DNA from: Vibrio sp. HDW18
GTDB lineage: Bacteria > Pseudomonadota > Gammaproteobacteria > Enterobacterales > Vibrionaceae
Direction of reading: 5' to 3'
Length of the DNA stretch: 64,000 nucleotides
Assembly: GCF_011306175.1 (NCBI RefSeq)
Contig: NZ_CP049913.1
Coordinates: 372,001-436,000, forward strand
The position numbers were made by a program, and so were the translations under genes. Below, one piece after another: positions 5,413 to 39,941 of this stretch. Within the stretch, counting starts at the first letter, position 1; each line of letters begins with the position of its first letter. The notes under the pieces are model-generated. The model searched no databases. It was not told where the DNA came from and was given only the letters and a program-made list of their open reading frames with translations.

Positions 5413-6363
5413 TTAGAATTTCACCAGCGCCGAGCCCCAAGTGAAACCGCCACCAAACGCTTCGAGCAATAGAGTTTGCCCGCGCTGAATACGCCCATCA
5501 CGTACCGCTTCATCCAATGCCGTTGGCACTGTCGCTGCCGACGTATTGCCGTGGCGGTCTAACGTAACCACCACTTGATCTAATGACATAGCCAGTTTTT
5601 TCGCGGTCGCCGAGATAATCCGATAGTTAGCCTGATGGGGAACCAACCAATCGAGCTCTGATTTATCCATGTTATTGGCTTGCAGCGTATCGACCACCAA
5701 TTTAGACAGTTGTGTCACTGCCACTTTAAATACTTCGTTACCCGCCATGTGCAGCCATTTATCACTGCTGCCACCACGTTCAGGTACTTCAAGGCTCAAT
5801 AAATCACCAAATTGACCATCGGCGTGGATATGCGTTGAAAGAATACCGGGCTCATTGCTGGCTCCAACCACTACGGCACCTGCGCCATCACCAAACAAAA
5901 TAACTGTGGAGCGGTCGGTCGGATCACAAGTTTTGGACAGTGCATCCGCACCTATCACCAAAATATTTTTACATGCCCCAGATTTAACCTGTTGATCGGC
6001 AATCGAGAGCGCATACATAAAACCAGAGCAAGCGGCCGCCAAATCAAATGCAGGGCAACCTTTAATATCCAGCTTACCTTGCACTTGACAAGCAGCGGAG
6101 GGGAAAGCGTGACTCGCGCTGGTGGTGGCAACGATAATCATATCAATATCATTTTTATCGATACCGGCCATGTCGATGGCGTTTTGTGCCGCATAGAAAG
6201 CCATATCGGCCACCGTTTCATTATCAGCGGCAATGCGACGCTCGCGGATACCAGTACGAGCAACAATCCACTCATCACTGGTCTCTACCATTTTCTCTAA
6301 ATCTGCGTTAGTACGCACCTGAGATGGCAAGTAGCTGCCAGTACCTAAAATTTTGCTATACAT
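5413..6363 (-). CDS. fabH: 3-oxoacyl-[acyl-carrier-protein] synthase III
   Basis: Initiating condensing enzyme joining acetyl-CoA to malonyl-ACP. The 316-residue protein contains the Cys nucleophile in [12 protein letters not shown], His in [11 protein letters not shown] and Asn in [11 protein letters not shown], the complete KAS III triad. It sits five bases after plsX. This is the housekeeping FabH of the fab cluster (VC2023 type), not the second FabH that V. cholerae carries elsewhere. Confidence 0.96.
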
Positions 6364-8280: not shown

Positions 8281-8297
8281 ATGCAGAATTACCAACT
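8281..8297 (+). other. attL: left attachment site of the maf-inserted element
   Basis: ATGCAGAATTACCAACT matches ATGCAAAATTACCAACT at 13012-13028 in 16 of 17 positions; the uninterrupted common core is AATTACCAACT (8287-8297 and 13018-13028). The single difference is a synonymous CAG/CAA change in codon 2 of maf. Chromosomal sequence lies to the left and element sequence to the right. The exact crossover within the 11-bp core cannot be set from one sequence. Confidence 0.85.
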
Positions 8298-8328
8298 GAT
8301 TTGTATAGGGACAAGGTTAACTCTCTGA
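8281..8328 (+). pseudogene. Displaced 5' end of maf at the left attachment site
   Basis: ATG CAG AAT TAC CAA CTG encodes MQNYQL, exactly the first residues of the intact maf at 13012, then runs into element DNA and stops at TGA after 15 codons (MQNYQLICIGTRLTL). This is the original maf start, cut off from its gene by insertion of the element. The native maf promoter region now faces the element's integrase, so any transcript from it would enter int. Confidence 0.85.
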
Positions 8329-8344
8329 ATATAAAGAGATTATT

Positions 8345-9928
8345 ATGACCTTTAACAATCATCTCAAAGCCTCAAACTCTCAAGAAGTCACCAAAAGAAG
8401 TCACTACGCCTCTTTGTCCCAATCTGTATGTTTTCCTTCAAGTAACCCAAGTAACTCAATAAACCCACACTATAGGAACATCCCAAAGATTTACTTCACG
8501 ACAATCAAGAAGGAGAACACTTTCTATCTAAGAGTCTCACACCGAGACCAGTTACAGAATGAGAGTGTTACCGTATCACTTAGAACAAATAATAGACGAG
8601 AGGCAATGATGAATACTGATTACCTAAAGGAACGCCTGTTAGAGCAAGCAGGTAGCTTTGTTAGCTTTGACCATATGAGAGCAGCTCTAAAGGAAATCGC
8701 ACAGACTGAGCTTGTTAGACGTCCCAAAGTTGATTGGTTTTACCGTGGTAATATCATCATTGCACAAGAAGCTCTCCAAGAAGCTCAGACAGTCGAACAG
8801 GTTAGATTCATACAGTCCTATTCAGATATCATGAAGAAGGGCTTACAGAGCGATACAGAAGGTTTATTGTCGATTGTTGATAGTGTCAGTGAAGTTAGTA
8901 GAGTTAGTGAATCAACTAACGTGAACAGCGAACGAAGTAAGCACAGAGTAAACAACGTTAAAACCTTTTCTCAAATGGTCGAGGATTATATTAACGAGAA
9001 AGAAGTTAGTGGAAGTTGGACAGCAGCAACATTAGGAACCAAAGCAGCCACTGTAAGAAAGCTTGTAAGCTACTTTGAGGCTTGCTCTCTTCAAGATAAA
9101 CCGATAGACCAGATAACAAGACAAGACCTATTGGAAGTGCGTACAGCTCTATCTAACGATGGTCTGAAGCTATCCACGGTAAACGGTCAAATAAGGAATA
9201 TTGTTGCTGTCTTTAAATATGCTGAATTGCTTGATGTTATTCCGAAAAGTCCAGCCGTTAAGCTGTTATTGAAAGACCGTGATAATAAAGACTCAAAGGC
9301 ATTAACAGAGTCAGAAGTTAACAATGTTCTGAGTTATTTCAAGCATGGTTATTTCACTGAAGCTAAACGCAGTAAGAAGACCACAGAGGCCATGGAGTTT
9401 ATCAAGTGGATTCCTCAATTAGCAGCTATTACAGGTGCAAGACTTAACGAAATTCTACAGCTACGCAAAGGCGACATAAAGCAATCTGATAATGGTCTAT
9501 GTTGGTTTATTGATATTAATGACAAAGATGACAATGTACTCAAGAATAAATCTTCAGCTCGTATAGTCCCTCTCGTAAATGGTGCTTATGGGTTCGACTT
9601 AGAGTTATTCCTAAATGAAGTTGTCAATACCTGTAATGATGATTCAGACAATATATTCAGACTCAAGAACAGTGACCGACAATTAAACAGCATCAAGATA
9701 GGTAAACTATTAAAGGCTTATCGAGATAACCACTCAGAAGCCCCTGAGACGCTCACAATGCATTATTTCCGTCACACTATGGCTACCCTATGCCTAAACA
9801 AGAAGATGCCTGAAAGCTTCGCTAAGGAAATATTAGGGCATACTCAGAGTATAACCTATGGTCTCTATGGTTCAGCAGGTGTAGACGTTGAGACAATGTA
9901 TAAAGAGATGGTTAAACTATGGTCATAA
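8345..9928 (+). CDS. Tyrosine recombinase (integrase) of the element
   Basis: Site-specific integrase of 527 residues. The catalytic set is complete: Arg in TGARLNEILQL (about residue 365), Lys in KNKSSARIVPL, HxxR in MHYFRHTMATL (about 473-476), His in ILGHTQ, and the nucleophile Tyr508 in YGLYG. An arm/core-binding SAM-like domain (about 205-295) precedes the catalytic domain. The ATG at 8345 has AAAGAGAT 7 nt upstream. The first 45 codons are low in complexity, contain the left GAAGTCAC arm repeats (8384-8407) and a T3-type promoter (8458-8480), so the N-terminal stretch doubles as regulatory DNA and the conserved protein may begin near IPKIYFTTIK. It is close to attL, as expected for an integrase. 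Confidence 0.93.
   Translation: MTFNNHLKASNSQEVTKRSHYASLSQSVCFPSSNPSNSINPHYRNIPKIYFTTIKKENTFYLRVSHRDQLQNESVTVSLRTNNRREAMMNTDYLKERLLEQAGSFVSFDHMRAALKEIAQTELVRRPKVDWFYRGNIIIAQEALQEAQTVEQVRFIQSYSDIMKKGLQSDTEGLLSIVDSVSEVSRVSESTNVNSERSKHRVNNVKTFSQMVEDYINEKEVSGSWTAATLGTKAATVRKLVSYFEACSLQDKPIDQITRQDLLEVRTALSNDGLKLSTVNGQIRNIVAVFKYAELLDVIPKSPAVKLLLKDRDNKDSKALTESEVNNVLSYFKHGYFTEAKRSKKTTEAMEFIKWIPQLAAITGARLNEILQLRKGDIKQSDNGLCWFIDINDKDDNVLKNKSSARIVPLVNGAYGFDLELFLNEVVNTCNDDSDNIFRLKNSDRQLNSIKIGKLLKAYRDNHSEAPETLTMHYFRHTMATLCLNKKMPESFAKEILGHTQSITYGLYGSAGVDVETMYKEMVKLWS
8384..8407 (+). repeat. Left arm-type repeat pair (GAAGTCAC x2)
   Basis: A 24-bp segment identical to 12914-12937. It contains GAAGTCAC at 8384-8391 and 8397-8404, spaced 13 bp. 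Its place about 90 bp inside attL, with a mirror set inside attR, fits integrase arm-binding sites of lambda-type recombinases. It lies inside the annotated start of the integrase frame. Confidence 0.65.
8458..8480 (+). promoter_or_regulatory. T3-type phage RNA polymerase promoter P1
   Basis: AATAAACCCACACTATAGGA matches the T3 promoter AATTAACCCTCACTAAAGGG at 16 of 20 positions and shares AACCCACACTATAGG with the two promoters at 10065 and 10225. Predicted initiation at G8475, inside the integrase frame (about codon 44). It is the most divergent of the three because +3 is A rather than G. If used, it would produce an int transcript lacking the first codons, or simply read through to the rest of the element. 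Confidence 0.7.
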
Positions 9929-9940
9929 CATATGAGAATC

Positions 9941-9967
9941 ACTATCATCTATACGCGTGGGTTAATT
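9941..9967 (-). promoter_or_regulatory. Degenerate minus-strand T3-type promoter, facing back into int
   Basis: Reverse complement reads AATTAACCCACGCGTATAGA. The first eleven bases are identical to the recognition half of the promoter at 10065, but the melting region is GCGTATAGA instead of ACTATAGGG and one base longer. It may be a decayed or low-activity promoter antisense to integrase, or a fortuitous match. Seen 13-39 bases after the int stop. Confidence 0.3.
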
Positions 9968-10064
9968 ACATAAGAGCAACATAACCACCAACATAAAGAC
10001 AACAATCAGACTCTCAAAGCTCCTCGTCAATAGAACAAAAAGTCCCTATAAATCAATAATATTG

Positions 10065-10087
10065 AATTAACCCACACTATAGGGGGA
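10065..10087 (+). promoter_or_regulatory. T3-type phage RNA polymerase promoter P2
   Basis: AATTAACCCACACTATAGGG matches the T3 class consensus AATTAACCCTCACTAAAGGG at 18 of 20 positions, followed by GGA. The -17 to -5 recognition part is T3-like rather than T7-like, whereas TATAGGG is the initiation block shared by T7 promoters. Predicted start at G10082. It points away from int toward the four unknown genes and immediately precedes the AT-rich repeats. Confidence 0.88.
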
Positions 10088-10098
10088 CAGTAGGGGGA

Positions 10099-10216
10099 GA
10101 CTATAAGATATCTTTAAGATAAGACTATAAGATATCTTTAAGATTACTCTTTAAGTCTAATATTCTTAATAGTAATTATTATTAAAGAATCATTATCTTT
10201 AAGATATATCTTTAAG
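10099..10216. repeat. AT-rich iteron-like repeats (AAGATATCTTTAAGAT)
   Basis: A 22-bp unit beginning GACTATAAGATATC is perfectly repeated at 10099-10120 and 10123-10144. Related ATCTTTAAG/AAGATAT units recur at about 10134-10155 and 10195-10216. The AAGATATCTT core is a perfect palindrome. The block is almost wholly A and T and lies between phage promoters P2 and P3. It could be an unwinding region, an iteron set for an initiator, or both. Confidence 0.75.
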
Positions 10217-10224
10217 TCCCTCCT

Positions 10225-10247
10225 ATTTAACCCACACTATAGGGAGA
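10225..10247 (+). promoter_or_regulatory. T3-type phage RNA polymerase promoter P3
   Basis: ATTTAACCCACACTATAGGG matches the T3 class consensus at 17 of 20 positions and is followed by AGA, giving GGGAGA at the start as in T7 and T3 class III promoters. Predicted start at G10242. It lies about 215 bases upstream of the first unknown gene, so its transcript would cover genes at 10462, 10736, 11242 and 12197. Confidence 0.88.
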
Positions 10248-10420
10248 TATTAACTATCATCCCGTTGCTATAGCGAAGTTAATTGTAATCAAATCATCTT
10301 AGCTGTAATCACTTAAAGACACATCTCTACAGATTTAATCATGTGAGTCATTCTGGTTATTCAGAGTGCATTGATTATTAATGGTGTATGTGTCTTACCA
10401 TAATCTTTATTTATAACCAT

Positions 10421-10461
10421 TGTTAACGAAGTAAACCATTACCAACAAGGAGACCCCTAAT
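10421..10461 (+). promoter_or_regulatory. Leader of the first element gene, shared motif with 11185-11241
   Basis: TGTTAACGAAGTAAAC, then ACCAACAAGGAGACC precedes the ATG at 10462. The leader at 11185-11241 has TGTGAACGCAGTAAAC, then ACCAACCCATAGGAGAAC before its ATG. AAGGAGA is a strong ribosome site 9 nt from the start. The repeated design suggests common translational or RNA-processing control of element genes. Confidence 0.5.
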
Positions 10462-10734
10462 ATGACAACTAAAGATAATGTGAACACTCTCGATATTCAT
10501 TTCAGAGGTGAGAAGCCTAAGCGTCTTTCATTTACTCAGAAAGCAGCTCTACACAATCGGATGATTAATATTCTCAGAAAGTTTGACTGTGAGCATTCCC
10601 AAAGTGCAGCGGATAAACTTCAAGCCACTCTTAAAGGGATGACTGGAATTAAATATACCGGATGGGAAGCTTGTCGGAAAGAATTAGCCTATGAAAAAGC
10701 TAAGTTTCAATTAGAGAAAGAAGGAGTCCTATAA
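10462..10734 (+). CDS. Unrecognised 90-residue element protein
   Basis: I do not recognise this protein. It is small, basic and probably mostly helical: MTTKDNVNTLDIHFRGEKPK is followed by LSFTQKAALHNRMINILRKF and a charged C-terminal helix ending KFQLEKEGVL. No membrane segment or cysteine motif is apparent. A strong ribosome site (AAGGAGA) and a one-base gap before the next gene show it is a real, translated gene of a polycistronic unit led by phage promoter P3. First in the array after the candidate origin, it could be a DNA-binding or initiation factor, but that is a guess from position only. Confidence 0.75.
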   Translation: MTTKDNVNTLDIHFRGEKPKRLSFTQKAALHNRMINILRKFDCEHSQSAADKLQATLKGMTGIKYTGWEACRKELAYEKAKFQLEKEGVL

Positions 10735-10735
10735 G

Positions 10736-11143
10736 ATGAGTATTATTAATTATGATGAAACAACTAATACATTTAGTGTCTACGGACAAACTTTTACAGC
10801 AGATTATTTTAATCATGTTCAAGTTGCTATTTTACTTGACATTAATTGGTCTGTCGGTCTCATCCATAACGCACTGAAAGACACACCCTTAGCGAATCAC
10901 CGTGACCACCGATTAGTGAATCATCGTCGTGAACTGGCAGAGATTGCAGAAAGGGAGTCTAAAGAAGCAGCAGAGCGTACACGTATAGCTCTCCTCAGAG
11001 ACCCTGAGCATCAAGCAAAGCTAAAACGTGAACGCGATGCCTTTGCCGCTAAGAGTCGAGCACATGCAGCAGCCTTAAAGTCTGGTCGTCCTGTCTACAC
11101 AAACAGTCCTCACCAAGACCCTATTCCAAGTATCAAATGGTAA
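10736..11143 (+). CDS. Unrecognised 135-residue element protein with charged helical C-terminal half
   Basis: I do not recognise this protein. Residues 1-60 look globular (MSIINYDETTNTFSVYGQTF, then a DINWSVGLIHNAL segment that could be a short helix-turn-helix-like element). Residues 60-115 form a very charged Arg/Glu/Ala-rich stretch likely to be a long helix or coiled coil (AEIAERESKEAAERTR, KLKRERDAFAAKSRAHAAAL). It ends PIPSIKW. It starts one base after the previous stop, with AGGAG inside that gene's end, so the two are translationally coupled. Function unknown. Confidence 0.78.
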   Translation: MSIINYDETTNTFSVYGQTFTADYFNHVQVAILLDINWSVGLIHNALKDTPLANHRDHRLVNHRRELAEIAERESKEAAERTRIALLRDPEHQAKLKRERDAFAAKSRAHAAALKSGRPVYTNSPHQDPIPSIKW

Positions 11144-11149
11144 AGCTAT

Positions 11150-11169
11150 GGCCTCCTAAAAGGGAGGCT
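11150..11169 (+). other. Hairpin between element genes
   Basis: GCCTCC-taaaag-GGAGGC, a 6-bp perfect stem directly after the stop of the 135-residue protein. There is no T-run, so it is not a classical intrinsic terminator. In T7-type phages, intergenic hairpins act as RNase III processing sites or 3' stabilisers; that role here is inference. Confidence 0.4.
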
Positions 11170-11184
11170 ATCGACCCTAAACAC

Positions 11185-11241
11185 TGTGAACGCAGTAAAC
11201 ACTCTAAACACTAACCACCAACCCATAGGAGAACACCAATT
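11185..11241 (+). promoter_or_regulatory. Leader of the 314-residue element gene
   Basis: Contains TAAACACT repeats around TGTGAACGCAGTAAAC and ends ACCAACCCATAGGAGAACACC before the ATG at 11242. It resembles the leader at 10421-10461 in both the GAACGNAGTAAAC block and the ACCAAC...AGGAGA ribosome-site block. The CCCATAGGAGA portion also faintly resembles the end of the phage promoters, but not well enough to call one. Confidence 0.45.
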
Positions 11242-12186
11242 ATGAATATCACAATCAATGAAAAACCTTCAGCTCAAAGCTACTTGGAGTCATTGGCTCG
11301 CAAGTTGTCCGGTTGTTTCAACTCAGTAGCCTTTAAGACTGCTTGCGGTACTGAAGCTCGGTACTTCCGATTCCATCGCAAAGGTGATAACCCTAAGACA
11401 ATCCAAGTCCCTACTCTTGCGAATCGTTCCGTAAAGCTCAACCTTGCTGACAAATCACAGAATGGTAAGCCAACTATCATCACTCACAAACAAGGCTCGT
11501 TGGTGGTCTCTAAGCCATGTAAAGAGGGCTTAATGCTATCCGCAGCGATTGAGCTTAGTGATTCTGAGGTAAGTGGTCATATTACTGATTTGTCACTTCA
11601 ACAAGAGATTGAGACCGTAACCGAGACCACTAACGATACTTTGAATAAGGAAATCTTAGGCTTAATCGAGGAATCGGAAGACTTTGCGAAGCTCGTTAAG
11701 GTCATGCCAGAAACAAGCTCAGGGACTGGTCTTAAAGCCCGTGGAGAAGCTCTACAAGAATCAATCTTCACAGCTAAGGCTGAGGTATTGCCTTTAGGCA
11801 AAGAGCTTGCAGATTACATTGTGGGACTGTCAGACGCTGCTTTCACTGCCCTTGAGTATAGTGCTCGTGTTAATGGCTTTAGCTCTATCCATGACATGAT
11901 GGGAACTGAGGTATTTGCCTTTACCAGTAAGAGCGATGACACAGGTACAAATAACTATGGCTATCTGATTCCAAGACGACACACAGCGATTAGCTTTGCT
12001 GAGTCAGCTACAGGTGAAGTCTTCAAGTTCGAGGTGACCCGTAAACCTGAAACCCAAAGCTCTATCATGGAGATTATCGCTAATGCTGAAGTATTGGCAG
12101 CAGGTTTCACCAAGCTTGATGTGGACGGACAGACAGTTGACGTTACCATGCCTCTTATCACTCAGTTCAGCTTAAAGATTGCTTGA
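11242..12186 (+). CDS. Unrecognised 314-residue protein, largest cargo gene of the element
   Basis: I do not recognise this protein. It has no signal peptide, membrane helix or metal-binding motif. Residues 1-130 appear mixed beta (ARYFRFHRKGDNPKTIQVPT, PTIITHKQGSLVVSKPC), 130-230 look helical and acidic (KEILGLIEESEDFAKLVKVM, KELADYIVGLSDAAFTALEY), and 230-314 return to beta with a distinct YGYLIPRRHTAISFAES segment. AGGAGA precedes the ATG by 8 nt. As the largest gene under promoter P3 it is the best candidate for the element's main helper-directed function (packaging diversion, capsid or replication interference), but nothing in the sequence decides this. Confidence 0.82.
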   Translation: MNITINEKPSAQSYLESLARKLSGCFNSVAFKTACGTEARYFRFHRKGDNPKTIQVPTLANRSVKLNLADKSQNGKPTIITHKQGSLVVSKPCKEGLMLSAAIELSDSEVSGHITDLSLQQEIETVTETTNDTLNKEILGLIEESEDFAKLVKVMPETSSGTGLKARGEALQESIFTAKAEVLPLGKELADYIVGLSDAAFTALEYSARVNGFSSIHDMMGTEVFAFTSKSDDTGTNNYGYLIPRRHTAISFAESATGEVFKFEVTRKPETQSSIMEIIANAEVLAAGFTKLDVDGQTVDVTMPLITQFSLKIA

Positions 12187-12196
12187 GGTGTCTAAT

Positions 12197-12475
12197 ATGG
12201 AAATTGTCAATCTACTTAGTATTGACAGGAATGGCTCACACGGACAAGTGAGCTATCACGAAAAGTACACTTTACTATGGAACAAACCTAAGCTCTCCTT
12301 TGAGTTTGTTATTATCCACTATGTGAAAGGTGATGAAGTCTACCCTAAAGGATTCAAGACGATTGACCCTAACGGACAACCTATTGAGTTGCGTCCTGAA
12401 GAGATTCAAGAGGTTGAGGCTTACTGTCAAGACAATGCAACTACTCCGTGGGCAGACTTGTGTAGTATCAGTTGA
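12197..12475 (+). CDS. Unrecognised 92-residue element protein
   Basis: I do not recognise this protein. It is small and acidic, with likely beta-rich N-terminal half (SYHEKYTLLWNKPKLSFEFV) and an acidic helix RPEEIQEVEAYCQD, ending WADLCSIS. I chose the ATG at 12197 because GAGGTG lies 8 nt upstream; a TTG at 12179 overlapping the previous gene is less likely. It lies 10 nt after the 314-residue gene and is the last of the rightward array. Confidence 0.72.
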   Translation: MEIVNLLSIDRNGSHGQVSYHEKYTLLWNKPKLSFEFVIIHYVKGDEVYPKGFKTIDPNGQPIELRPEEIQEVEAYCQDNATTPWADLCSIS

Positions 12476-12490
12476 GATAAAGTTAACAAG

Positions 12491-12718
12491 CTATTTTGAT
12501 ATAAAAATACTAAATGCCCACTCTGGTAAGCCAAATAAGAAGCTCCAACCACCTAAAATAGAGGCAATTGGGGCGGTCAAAGGGAACAAAGCTAAGGCAA
12601 ACATCGCAAAGCCGCCTATCTTAATTGCAATCCACAACCAGTAAAGCCACCCAACCGGAAGCAAAATAGCTAAAAACCAAATGAGAGCACTTGCAAGACC
12701 GCCTAAAACTCTGTCCAT
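12491..12718 (-). CDS. Small membrane protein of the element, opposite orientation
   Basis: A 75-residue very hydrophobic protein (MDRVLGGLASALIWFLAILL, then WLYWLWIAIKIGG and a third apolar stretch FAMFALALFPLTAPIASILG), predicted to have two or three membrane helices and almost no soluble domain. The ATG at 12718 has AAAGG 9 nt upstream; an upstream ATG at 12736 is less well placed. It is the only leftward gene and has none of the phage promoters on its strand apart from the degenerate one downstream, so it is probably read by host polymerase in the dormant state. Possible roles are superinfection exclusion or host modification; unproven. Confidence 0.65.
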   Translation of the reverse strand: MDRVLGGLASALIWFLAILLPVGWLYWLWIAIKIGGFAMFALALFPLTAPIASILGGWSFLFGLPEWAFSIFISK

Positions 12719-12913
12719 AAACACACACCTTTGCATTAAATAACGTAATGCTCAGAATTGTATCAAATAGTCACTTTGTGGCATAGCATGCTGATGAAAA
12801 TCTACCAGAAAAATCTGAGAGACCATCTAATTGATTAAGCGTAGAGATTACCCCCATATAGGGTGTCTTTATGCCTCTCTTTTTGTGTTACGTTATAACA
12901 TTGCGTTAATCAG

Positions 12914-12946
12914 GAAGTCACCAAAAGAAGTCACTACAGAAGTCAC
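12914..12946 (+). repeat. Right arm-type repeats (GAAGTCAC x3)
   Basis: GAAGTCAC occurs at 12914-12921, 12927-12934 and 12939-12946, spaced 13 and 12 bp, about 70-105 bp inside attR. The first 24 bp are identical to 8384-8407 in the left end. Direct repeats at near-helical spacing on both sides of the attachment cores fit integrase arm sites. Confidence 0.65.
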
Positions 12947-12954
12947 TAAGGCTA

Positions 12955-12983
12955 TTGACGTGAGTATGTACTATCCTTATAGT
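12955..12983 (+). promoter_or_regulatory. Element-borne sigma70 promoter for maf
   Basis: TTGACG (12955-12960), 17-bp spacer, TATAGT (12978-12983), pointing at the maf ATG at 13012. This is close to the E. coli consensus in both boxes and ideal in spacing. It lies inside the element, so integration replaces the native maf promoter with this one. Confidence 0.7.
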
Positions 12984-13011
12984 TCAATCATATCAACGCC
13001 TTGTAGACTCC

Positions 13012-13028
13012 ATGCAAAATTACCAACT
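13012..13028 (+). other. attR: right attachment site, recoded start of maf
   Basis: ATGCAAAATTACCAACT restores MQNYQ of maf using CAA in codon 2 where the left copy has CAG. The crossover lies in AATTACCAACT (13018-13028); sequence right of it is the native maf body. Confidence 0.85.
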
Positions 13029-13593
13029 AGTTTTAGCTTCCACCTCACCATTTCGCCAACAAATTCTGACCAAACTCAAGCTACCTTTCGTGAGTGCGAA
13101 ACCCGATTGCGATGAAACACCTTTAATCGGTGAAAGCCCAATCCAATTGGTGATGCGTTTAGCCGAACACAAAGCACGCAGCTGTTTTTTGCCTGAACCG
13201 AGTTTAGTGATTGGCTCCGATCAGGTGTGCGTGATTGACGGTCAAATCATCGGCAAACCCTTAACCATGGAAAAGGCGGTGGAGCAACTGTCACGACAAA
13301 GTGGCAAAGCGATCACCTTTTATACTGGAGTCGCCCTTTTTAATAACCAAACCCAGCAAATTCAGGTGGTTTACGATACGTTTACGGTCCATTTTCGAAC
13401 CTTGTCTGAATCAATGATCCGCAACTATGTGGCGGTCGAGCGACCACTGGAGTGTGCTGGCAGTTTTAAGAGTGAAGGTCTAGGCATTGCCCTGTTTGAG
13501 CGATTAGAAGGTGATGACCCCAATTCGCTGATTGGTCTGCCGCTGATTAAATTGATTAATCTGCTTGAACAAGAAGGGGTTAATGTGATTTAA
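13012..13593 (+). CDS. maf: Maf-family nucleotide pyrophosphatase YceF (7-methyl-GTP type)
   Basis: House-cleaning hydrolase of modified nucleoside triphosphates; the YceF branch prefers m7GTP in E. coli. The 193-residue protein begins [17 protein letters not shown] (family phosphate-binding ASTSPFR) and has the [16 protein letters not shown] block with the catalytic Asp region and [20 protein letters not shown]. The first codons come from the element's attR, so the gene is intact despite insertion. The ribosome site upstream (TGTAGACTCC) is weak. It converges with rluC. Confidence 0.95.
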
Positions 13594-37985: not shown

Positions 37986-39941
37986 TTAAACCTCCGACGA
38001 TAGGTGCTTTCTAAAACGGTAGCGTTTGTCACTAATTGCCAATATTCCAGCCAGCGCCATCAACAAACCGCCCGCCCAAACCCAACGAACGTACGGTTTA
38101 TAATAAATCCGTACCGCCCAAGAACGGTTGTCATCTAAACGCTCACCTAGTGCAATATAGAGATCACGCGTGATAGCGCGGTCGATCGCCGCTTCGGTCA
38201 TCATTGATTTAGCGGTACGGTAGAAACGTTTTTCCGCATGTAAGGTATTGATGTACTCCCCTTGGCGAGTGATTTCAAACTCCGCAATATAGCCGTCGTA
38301 GTTCGGGCCATCGTTATCGCGCACCGCTTGGAAATAAAAGTCATACTGGTTAAGCACGAAATTCTCGCCTGGCGCTAAACGCACATCACGCTCAATACTG
38401 TAATTTTGTACCATCGCAATACCGATAATCGAGACGGCCAATCCAGCATGTCCGAACAGCATCGCCCAATGGCTACGCGGCAACTTACCGATCCCTTGGA
38501 TAAAACGATGACGGTGGGTAGCTCGTGTATACAGTTCATAGCCATGCAGCAATAAAATCCACCACGCCATCACCCAGCCAAGATAGGCCATCAAGCTAAA
38601 GGAGGTTGCATTAAGCCACATCATCAGCCCTGACAGCATCAATGCCGCAGATGCACTGAGCAGCATAGGTTTGACTAAGCTTGAGAATTGATCTCGCTTC
38701 CAGCGGATCAGCGGACCAATGCCCATAAAAAACGCAAATGGGATCATTAACCAGGCAAATAGCATGTTAAAGAAAGGGGCACCGATCGAGACCGAGCCAA
38801 GGCCAAGCTGTTTATGCACCAAAGGCAGTAGAGTACCAATCAATACCACGGCCAACCCAGTCATTAGCAATATGTTATTCACCAGTAGGCCATTTTCACG
38901 CGACACGAGGTCGAAGTTACCCCGCACTCGCACCGCGGCCCCCTTGATCGCGAATAGCAGTAATGAACCACCAATCACGGCGATCAAAAAGCCAAGAATA
39001 AACATACCGCGCGCCGGATCGGAGGCAAACGCATGAACCGAGACCAAAATACCGGAGCGCACTAAAAAAGTGCCGAGCAAACTCAATGAGAAAGCAGAAA
39101 TCGCCAGTAATACCGTCCACGCCTTAAATGTGCCACGTTTTTCCGTAACCGCGAGCGAATGCATTAACGCGGTACCGGCCAACCAAGGCATAAATGATGC
39201 GTTTTCAACCGGATCCCAGAACCACCAGCCGCCCCAACCGAGTTCGTAGTAAGCCCACCAAGAACCCAATACGATGCCTAATGTTAAAAACAGCCAGGCG
39301 GCAATTGTCCAAGGCCGCGACCAACGCGCCCAAGCAGTATCAAGCCGACCGGTCATTAGCGAGGCAATCGCAAATGAAAAAGCGACCGAAAAACCGACGT
39401 AGCCCATATACAGCATCGGAGGGTGAATGATTAAACCAGGATCTTGCAATAATGGGTTTAAATCACGCCCATCAATGGGAAAATAAGGCAAAGTGCGTAA
39501 GAAAGGATTTGAGGTAACAATGATAAACAGCAAAAATCCAACCGTGATCATCCCCATCACCGCTAGCACTCGGGCTACCGACTCTTGTGGCATACCACGG
39601 CTAAAACTGGCCACCGCCACCGTCCAGCCCGCTTGGATTAACACCCAAAGCAATAGCGAGCCTTCATGGGCACCCCATACCGCGGTTAACCGGTAGTACC
39701 AAGGCAATTCGCTATTGGAATTACTGGCTACATACTGCACGGTAAAATCATTGCTATAGAATGCCCATAGCAAAATCACAAAAGAAACCAATAACATACA
39801 GAACATACCCCAGGACAAAGGGCGTGCAGTGTTAATCAGTATTGTGTTATTGCGTGAAGCACCCAGTAGCGGTAATCCGCTTAGTAAAACCGCTAATGCT
39901 AATGCCAGGATAAGTGCAAAATGGCCAATTTCCGCAATCAT
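37986..39941 (-). CDS. ccmF: Haem lyase CcmF
   Basis: A 651-residue polytopic membrane protein that ligates haem to apocytochrome c. The tryptophan-rich WWD domain is [20 protein letters not shown], with family His residues in [13 protein letters not shown] and elsewhere; a large periplasmic loop precedes the last membrane segment (about 510-615). It overlaps ccmE by 4 nt and abuts ccmG. Confidence 0.96.

Follow-up and report, generated by a model that had tools for sequence, protein, structure and literature searches.

A 4.73-kb integrated element of Vibrio sp. HDW18 with ICP3-type phage promoters, a candidate satellite of T7-like vibriophages

The integrated element and its insertion site

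The window analysed here is a stretch of 64,000 nucleotides of Vibrio sp. HDW18 (contig NZ_CP049913.1, positions 372,001 to 436,000), and coordinates refer to it unless stated otherwise. It carries a single integrated element of 4.73 kb, flanked by yceD and maf, which are divergently oriented, and present as one copy in the 3.14-Mb genome (three contigs), which is interpreted below as a probable satellite of a T7-like vibriophage. The element is delimited by a 22-bp core repeat, with attL at 8281..8302 forming its left end and attR at 13012..13033 at the 5' end of maf (no strand is assigned to these or to the other repeats). Both copies are identical at 19 of 22 positions and lie 4,731 bp apart, as had been proposed in a preliminary description made from the sequence alone, although the right end given there, 13028, has to be moved a few bases further to 13033. 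When 20 relatives were searched and 11 loci fetched, yceD was found to adjoin maf directly in all 11. The start of maf is displayed in eight of these loci (the other three, on the other strand, were unusable), and the att core AATTACCAACT is the maf start in seven of them but not in the eighth. The right end of the element restores this start.

The element encodes on the + strand a tyrosine integrase of 527 residues (8345..9928; PF00589, E 6e-14; phrog_1, E 3e-37), which has an 89% identical copy in V. ordalii. Residues R366, K400, H473, R476, H499 and Y508, which we take to be the catalytic ones, are invariant among 14 sequences. The integrase is complete, as the preliminary description had it. 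A direct repeat of 28 bp (27/28 identical), with its left copy at 8380..8407 (repeat D6), and the right copies of this arm-type repeat at 12910..12956 (repeats D5 and D6) are probably the arm sites of this enzyme. The integrase, the att repeats and the empty sites in relatives together indicate site-specific integration by an enzyme of the element's own. A σ70-like promoter in the right element end (12955..12983, + strand, TTGACG-17-TATAGT), found as the same string in V. ordalii, would stand in for the displaced maf promoter. In the 20 plasmid records found, the matches are confined to host yceD or maf DNA, and Rfam returned nothing.

Phage promoters, an origin-like region and a packaging-site-like boundary

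Three sites on the + strand of the element resemble the promoters of ICP3: promoter 1, inside the integrase frame (8458..8480, score 31.1), promoter 2 (10065..10087, score 35.9) and promoter 3 (10225..10247, score 38.1). The scoring matrix was built from the 14 promoters annotated in ICP3, whose own scores range from 29.9 to 41.2 when each is left out in turn. The next-best site in the whole window reaches 13.0 and the best of eight mononucleotide-shuffled windows 9.5, and 0.06 such sites were expected against the three found. The earlier proposal of three promoters for a single-subunit polymerase is thus upheld by sites far above background, but their class is ICP3-type and not T3-type as it had been named; the T3 class was discarded, as the sites fit the ICP3 consensus better than that of T3. 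The exact 17-mer TAACCCACACTATAGGG occurs in one of 227 Vibrio species genomes, the window's own, twice, and both times in the element, while the 17-mer TTAACCCACACTATAGG is found in six viral contigs of 29–55 kb, in 15 stretches. In ICP3 itself, the word AACCCAC, which is also that of the window's promoters, is present in 14 of the 15 sites of one promoter pattern.

Between promoters 2 and 3 lies an AT-rich region (10096..10224, no strand, 77.5% AT) that holds five of the six CTTTAAG words of the element. Positions 10065–10206 align to ICP3 5797–5941 (71%, E 4e-15) and 10054–10157 to ICP3 38533–38635 (77%); both ICP3 stretches have an annotated promoter inside and are non-coding, apart from the outermost few bases of 5797–5941. 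The region also resembles the annotated primary origin of T3, which is 3' of a T3 promoter and has 76.6% AT and the same kind of word, and it may fire as a replication origin.

The third phage-like sequence is found near the right end (12794..12860, + strand) and aligns to ICP3 38945–39012, a non-coding stretch of the right end of that genome, with 35 nucleotides exact (ICP3 38945–38979). Exact end repeats were found in T7 (160 bp), T3 (231 bp) and JELG-KS1 (185 bp), and the terminal repeats of the three phages start at one shared alignment position, which corresponds in the window to the boundary after 12825, followed by CCCCCATATAGGG. The boundaries of ICP3 and VP4 were located by alignment, because the records of both come without repeated ends. 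The 5' side of the boundary consists of AAAAATCTGA plus a few bases, and the 3' side of TCT, several C in succession and then ATA or a similar word, a layout kept both in the window and in the V. ordalii copy described below. With up to three mismatches, the boundary 31-mer occurs in two of 227 Vibrio genomes, within the element in both (control, 0), and a shorter degenerate form with up to one mismatch finds the same two among 394 genomes of the order (control, 1). Against 50,697 phage records, positions 12770–12900 matched 254 at E<=10; 29 of the 60 matches listed are Vibrio phages with E<=8e-10, and many of the other matches listed are weak. A degenerate boundary pattern was also found in three viral contigs, including IMGVR_UViG_3300030238_000004. 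The corresponding region of T7 had no match in 20,395 E. coli records. Neither the origin-like nor the boundary-like sequence was part of the preliminary description; both are newly recognised here.

A second copy in V. ordalii and a phage contig of matching promoter class

A second copy of the element, with the same site and layout, is found on two contigs of V. ordalii ATCC 33509. Its promoters stand at the same three places, including that inside the integrase, with changed specificity: they read AACGCCC, AACGCCC and AACACCC against AACCCAC in the window. The boundary site is identical at 30 of 31 positions. At the DNA level the copies share 90.6% in the integrase from codon 88 onwards, 93.5% in the boundary region (62 bp) and 88% in the right end, followed by 85, 78, 72 and 61% in the genes for the 92-, 314-, 135- and 90-residue proteins; for comparison, the host genes yceD and maf share 85% and 68%. 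The V. ordalii integrase has two stops before codon 88 and an open frame of 449 residues from there, which begins about 150 nucleotides downstream of promoter 1. One reading is that a short integrase could be made from the phage promoter; the other is that the stops may represent decay. The minus-strand open reading frame of 81 residues in the window is replaced in V. ordalii by a Bro-N protein of 194 residues (PF02498, E 2e-29; positions 1192–1776 of locus L035), and this position is a variable cargo slot.

With R allowed at −10, the V. ordalii promoter pattern matches a single viral contig, IMGVR_UViG_3300030238_000004. It represents a T7-like phage from a metagenome that also has the boundary sequence and is related to ICP3 (identities of about 70% for the polymerase, 82% for the terminase large subunit and 84% for the DNA polymerase). 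Its promoters were counted over six stretches covering 36.6 of 41.1 kb: one pattern finds 19 sites, of which 17 read AACACCC, and a wider one finds 22, none of them of the ICP3 type. The polymerase residues at T7 positions 748 and 758 are N and Q in T7, D and Q in T3, D and A in ICP3, and D and R in the contig; residue 748 of the T7 polymerase presumably reads the promoter at −10/−11 and residue 758 at −8. The promoters of elements and phages thus vary at the same positions; for the G-type promoters of V. ordalii, no helper was found among the viral contigs and phage records compared. With its distinct promoter class and its Arg at 758, this ICP3-related contig could be useful in work on polymerase specificity.

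Proteins encoded by the element

Downstream of promoters 2 and 3, the + strand encodes proteins of 90 (10462..10734), 135 (10736..11143), 314 (11242..12186) and 92 residues (12197..12475), the last scanned in a form of 98 residues. None of the four has a Pfam match above cut-off or a PHROG match below E 0.2, which agrees with the earlier description of four small unassignable genes in one direction. When they were compared with the 50,697 phage records (the integrase and the 81-residue frame were not part of this comparison), two matched nothing at E<=10, a third had one hit, at E 8, and the fourth a hit at E 0.01. The 90-residue protein is uncharacterised. The 135-residue protein, modelled with long helices (predicted template modelling score 0.31), has named homologues in V. 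cholerae, V. mimicus, V. fluvialis and V. metschnikovii.

The 314-residue protein is the hallmark of the element. It has 50 homologous clusters, whose named members are all from Vibrio (V. cholerae, V. paracholerae, V. fluvialis, V. metschnikovii, V. ordalii and V. aestuarianus), and it is present in two of 227 Vibrio genomes. Outside the genome of the window, a contig search found it on one genome contig. Its model (mean predicted local distance difference test score 39.8) was too poor for a structure search, and a PDB sequence search gave nothing below E 0.5. The 92-residue protein accounts for the match at E 0.01, a weak likeness to a hypothetical protein of vibriophage N4 (tblastn, 32.5% over 82 residues), which could possibly reflect gene exchange with helpers; ICP3 orf49 was considered as its homologue and discarded, the two having no similarity. 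The N4 relative is encoded just before a small packaging gene.

The 81-residue frame (12491..12736, − strand) had been called a membrane protein. Its hydrophobicity, judged by eye alone, agrees with that description. No PADLOC model matches the five element proteins other than the integrase or the V. ordalii Bro-N protein. The Pfam, PHROG and phage-record comparisons recognised no structural, polymerase or terminase gene in the element, as had been noted before for the structural and single-subunit polymerase genes.

A proposed satellite cycle and its alternatives

The model proposed here, to which a probability of about 0.84 is given, is that the element is a minimal satellite, dependent on a T7-like vibriophage for its expression, copying and packaging. 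It is by far the likeliest explanation, because the kinds of sequence in cis required by a T7-type helper for these three steps are all present, no helper gene is recognised, and packaged T7 plasmids provide a precedent. The earlier proposal of a T7-like helper thus gains support, as an inference from sequence, through the ICP3-class promoters and the origin- and boundary-like sequences. In that proposal the element would be silent before infection and would need neither repressor nor activator. Once a helper with ICP3-class promoters has infected the cell, its single-subunit RNA polymerase would transcribe the four-gene operon from promoters 2 and 3 and fire the origin-like region; promoter 1 may yield a short integrase message. 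The integrase would excise the element via the att core and the arm repeats, the replication proteins of the helper would form concatemers, and the boundary sequence would be the site at which its terminase cuts. A head of ICP3 size would be filled by about eight copies (8 x 4,731 = 37,848 bp), as the ICP3 records measure 38,345–39,349 bp. The letters of the promoters would determine which helper switches the element on, as the V. ordalii copy suggests.

The same sequences could serve a chromosomal defence or decoy island that is not normally found in virions, in which the helper polymerase would activate anti-phage genes and the origin- and boundary-like sequences would titrate helper proteins. 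Four uncharacterised genes downstream of phage promoters and a variable cargo slot would suit such an island, but this explanation is considered unlikely, given that PADLOC recognised none of the proteins compared and that the 93.5% identity of the boundary region, the arm repeats, the integrase and the copies at the same site fit a packaged mobile element better. Less probable still is descent by deletion from a T7-like prophage, with promoters, origin and right end retained by chance, a derivation that the preliminary description had named as one that would overturn its view. The sequences in cis do match non-coding or nearly non-coding regions of ICP3; however, no integrase is annotated in ICP3, V. 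ordalii shows the same layout, and no residual T7-like coding gene is recognised, with three of the four proteins lacking a phage match better than E 8 and the nearest candidate being the 92-residue protein with its likeness to N4. No sign of such an origin was found. It is equally hard to credit that the element is an ordinary integrative element whose promoter- and boundary-like stretches are chance or neutral gains: in another genus, two loci with homologous integrases do lack promoter and boundary motifs in their readable parts, but chance fails to explain the matches, and the parallel change of all three V. ordalii promoters is unlike neutral drift.

Several observations weigh against the satellite model. 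The case for it is built on sequence. At one mismatch the promoter 17-mer is found in three further Vibrio genomes, one copy each, and its reversed control in 14 of 227 against four for the pattern itself, so that only exact matches are counted. In V. ordalii, two of the three promoters carry G at −10, a form found exactly in none of the viral contigs, and a phage comparison of the promoter and AT-rich region of that copy gave nothing significant (E 0.09 for the best match listed). The 314-residue protein was found in no viral contig, and no excisionase, primase or regulator is recognised in the element. RNA from promoter 1 would start inside the long integrase frame and could encode no more than a short integrase beginning at 8606; the codons at this promoter in integrase homologues, given in the next paragraph, also count against the model. 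The identities of 61–85% between the four remaining genes of both copies are not above those of host genes, and transfer between species is therefore only partly supported. Finally, according to PMC12137116, ICP1 and ICP3 use the O1 antigen; given this need, ICP3 itself may not infect the host of the element.

A broader claim, held to be somewhat more likely than not, is that the two copies may be the founders of a satellite family that exploits T7-like phages, with the helper RNA polymerase as sole inducer and a few promoter letters that decide the helper and follow its polymerase specificity across Vibrio species; the element would then be the natural counterpart of the T7 packaging plasmid. 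The rating of this claim was reduced slightly because promoter 1, readable in integrase proteins as the codons NPHYR, is compatible in its exact core with the codons of just eight of the 48 homologues (out of 67) that are long enough for this comparison at the protein level: eight have the HYR motif, eight NPHIR, one NPHFR, 22 NPD- and nine none of them.

Relation to known systems and significance

In the literature searched, which covered few subscription papers or preprints, no satellite of T7-supergroup phages was found among the hits listed. Other satellite families are covered by a review of hitcher elements, whose main text contains neither RNA polymerase nor promoter as a word. The element resembles the PICMI satellites, which PMC10803314 describes as small (prototype 6.1 kb), integrated in Vibrio, dependent on virulent phages and devoid of capsid-remodelling genes, the prototype being packaged as eight-copy concatemers. 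The PICMI model of that text requires int, alpA and prim, and all PICMIs found are located at fis; in contrast, the six open reading frames of the element include no AlpA and no primase family, its site is yceD/maf, and its trigger would be the RNA polymerase of the helper. PLEs share activation by a virulent vibriophage, but they parasitise ICP1, a myovirus; they are set apart here by their description. ICP3 and its relatives (Chatterjeevirus) share with the element the promoter class, the AT-rich stretch and the right-end boundary sequence, but none of the genes of these phages is recognised in the element, and the ICP3 annotation includes no integrase.

A further precedent is artificial. 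According to Chung and Hinkle (1990), plasmids with a T7 replication origin and a concatemer junction are packaged during infection, and PMC9799975 uses this pair to bring a plasmid into T7 particles. The element would combine the same two kinds of sequence on a small DNA, but it is natural, integrates and has genes of its own. If the model is true, the element could be induced without encoding a regulator for this purpose, the helper would be legible from the promoter letters, and one of the best understood phage groups would offer a minimal system in which to study the requirements of a satellite. Cocktails containing ICP3 have been tested against cholera in animals, and the element may matter for them, because many homologues of the 314-residue protein and of the integrase come from V. 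cholerae records.

Homologues of the integrase

At E<=1e-20 the integrase has 70 homologues, including those of V. metoecus and V. misgurnus; more distant ones, with identities of 39–42%, are found in V. vulnificus, Plesiomonas and Photobacterium, and relatives are present in four of 329 genomes of the family. A homologue of another genus (locus L061), in whose readable part there is no phage promoter motif, looks, by eye, split by a pair of transposase frames resembling an insertion sequence.

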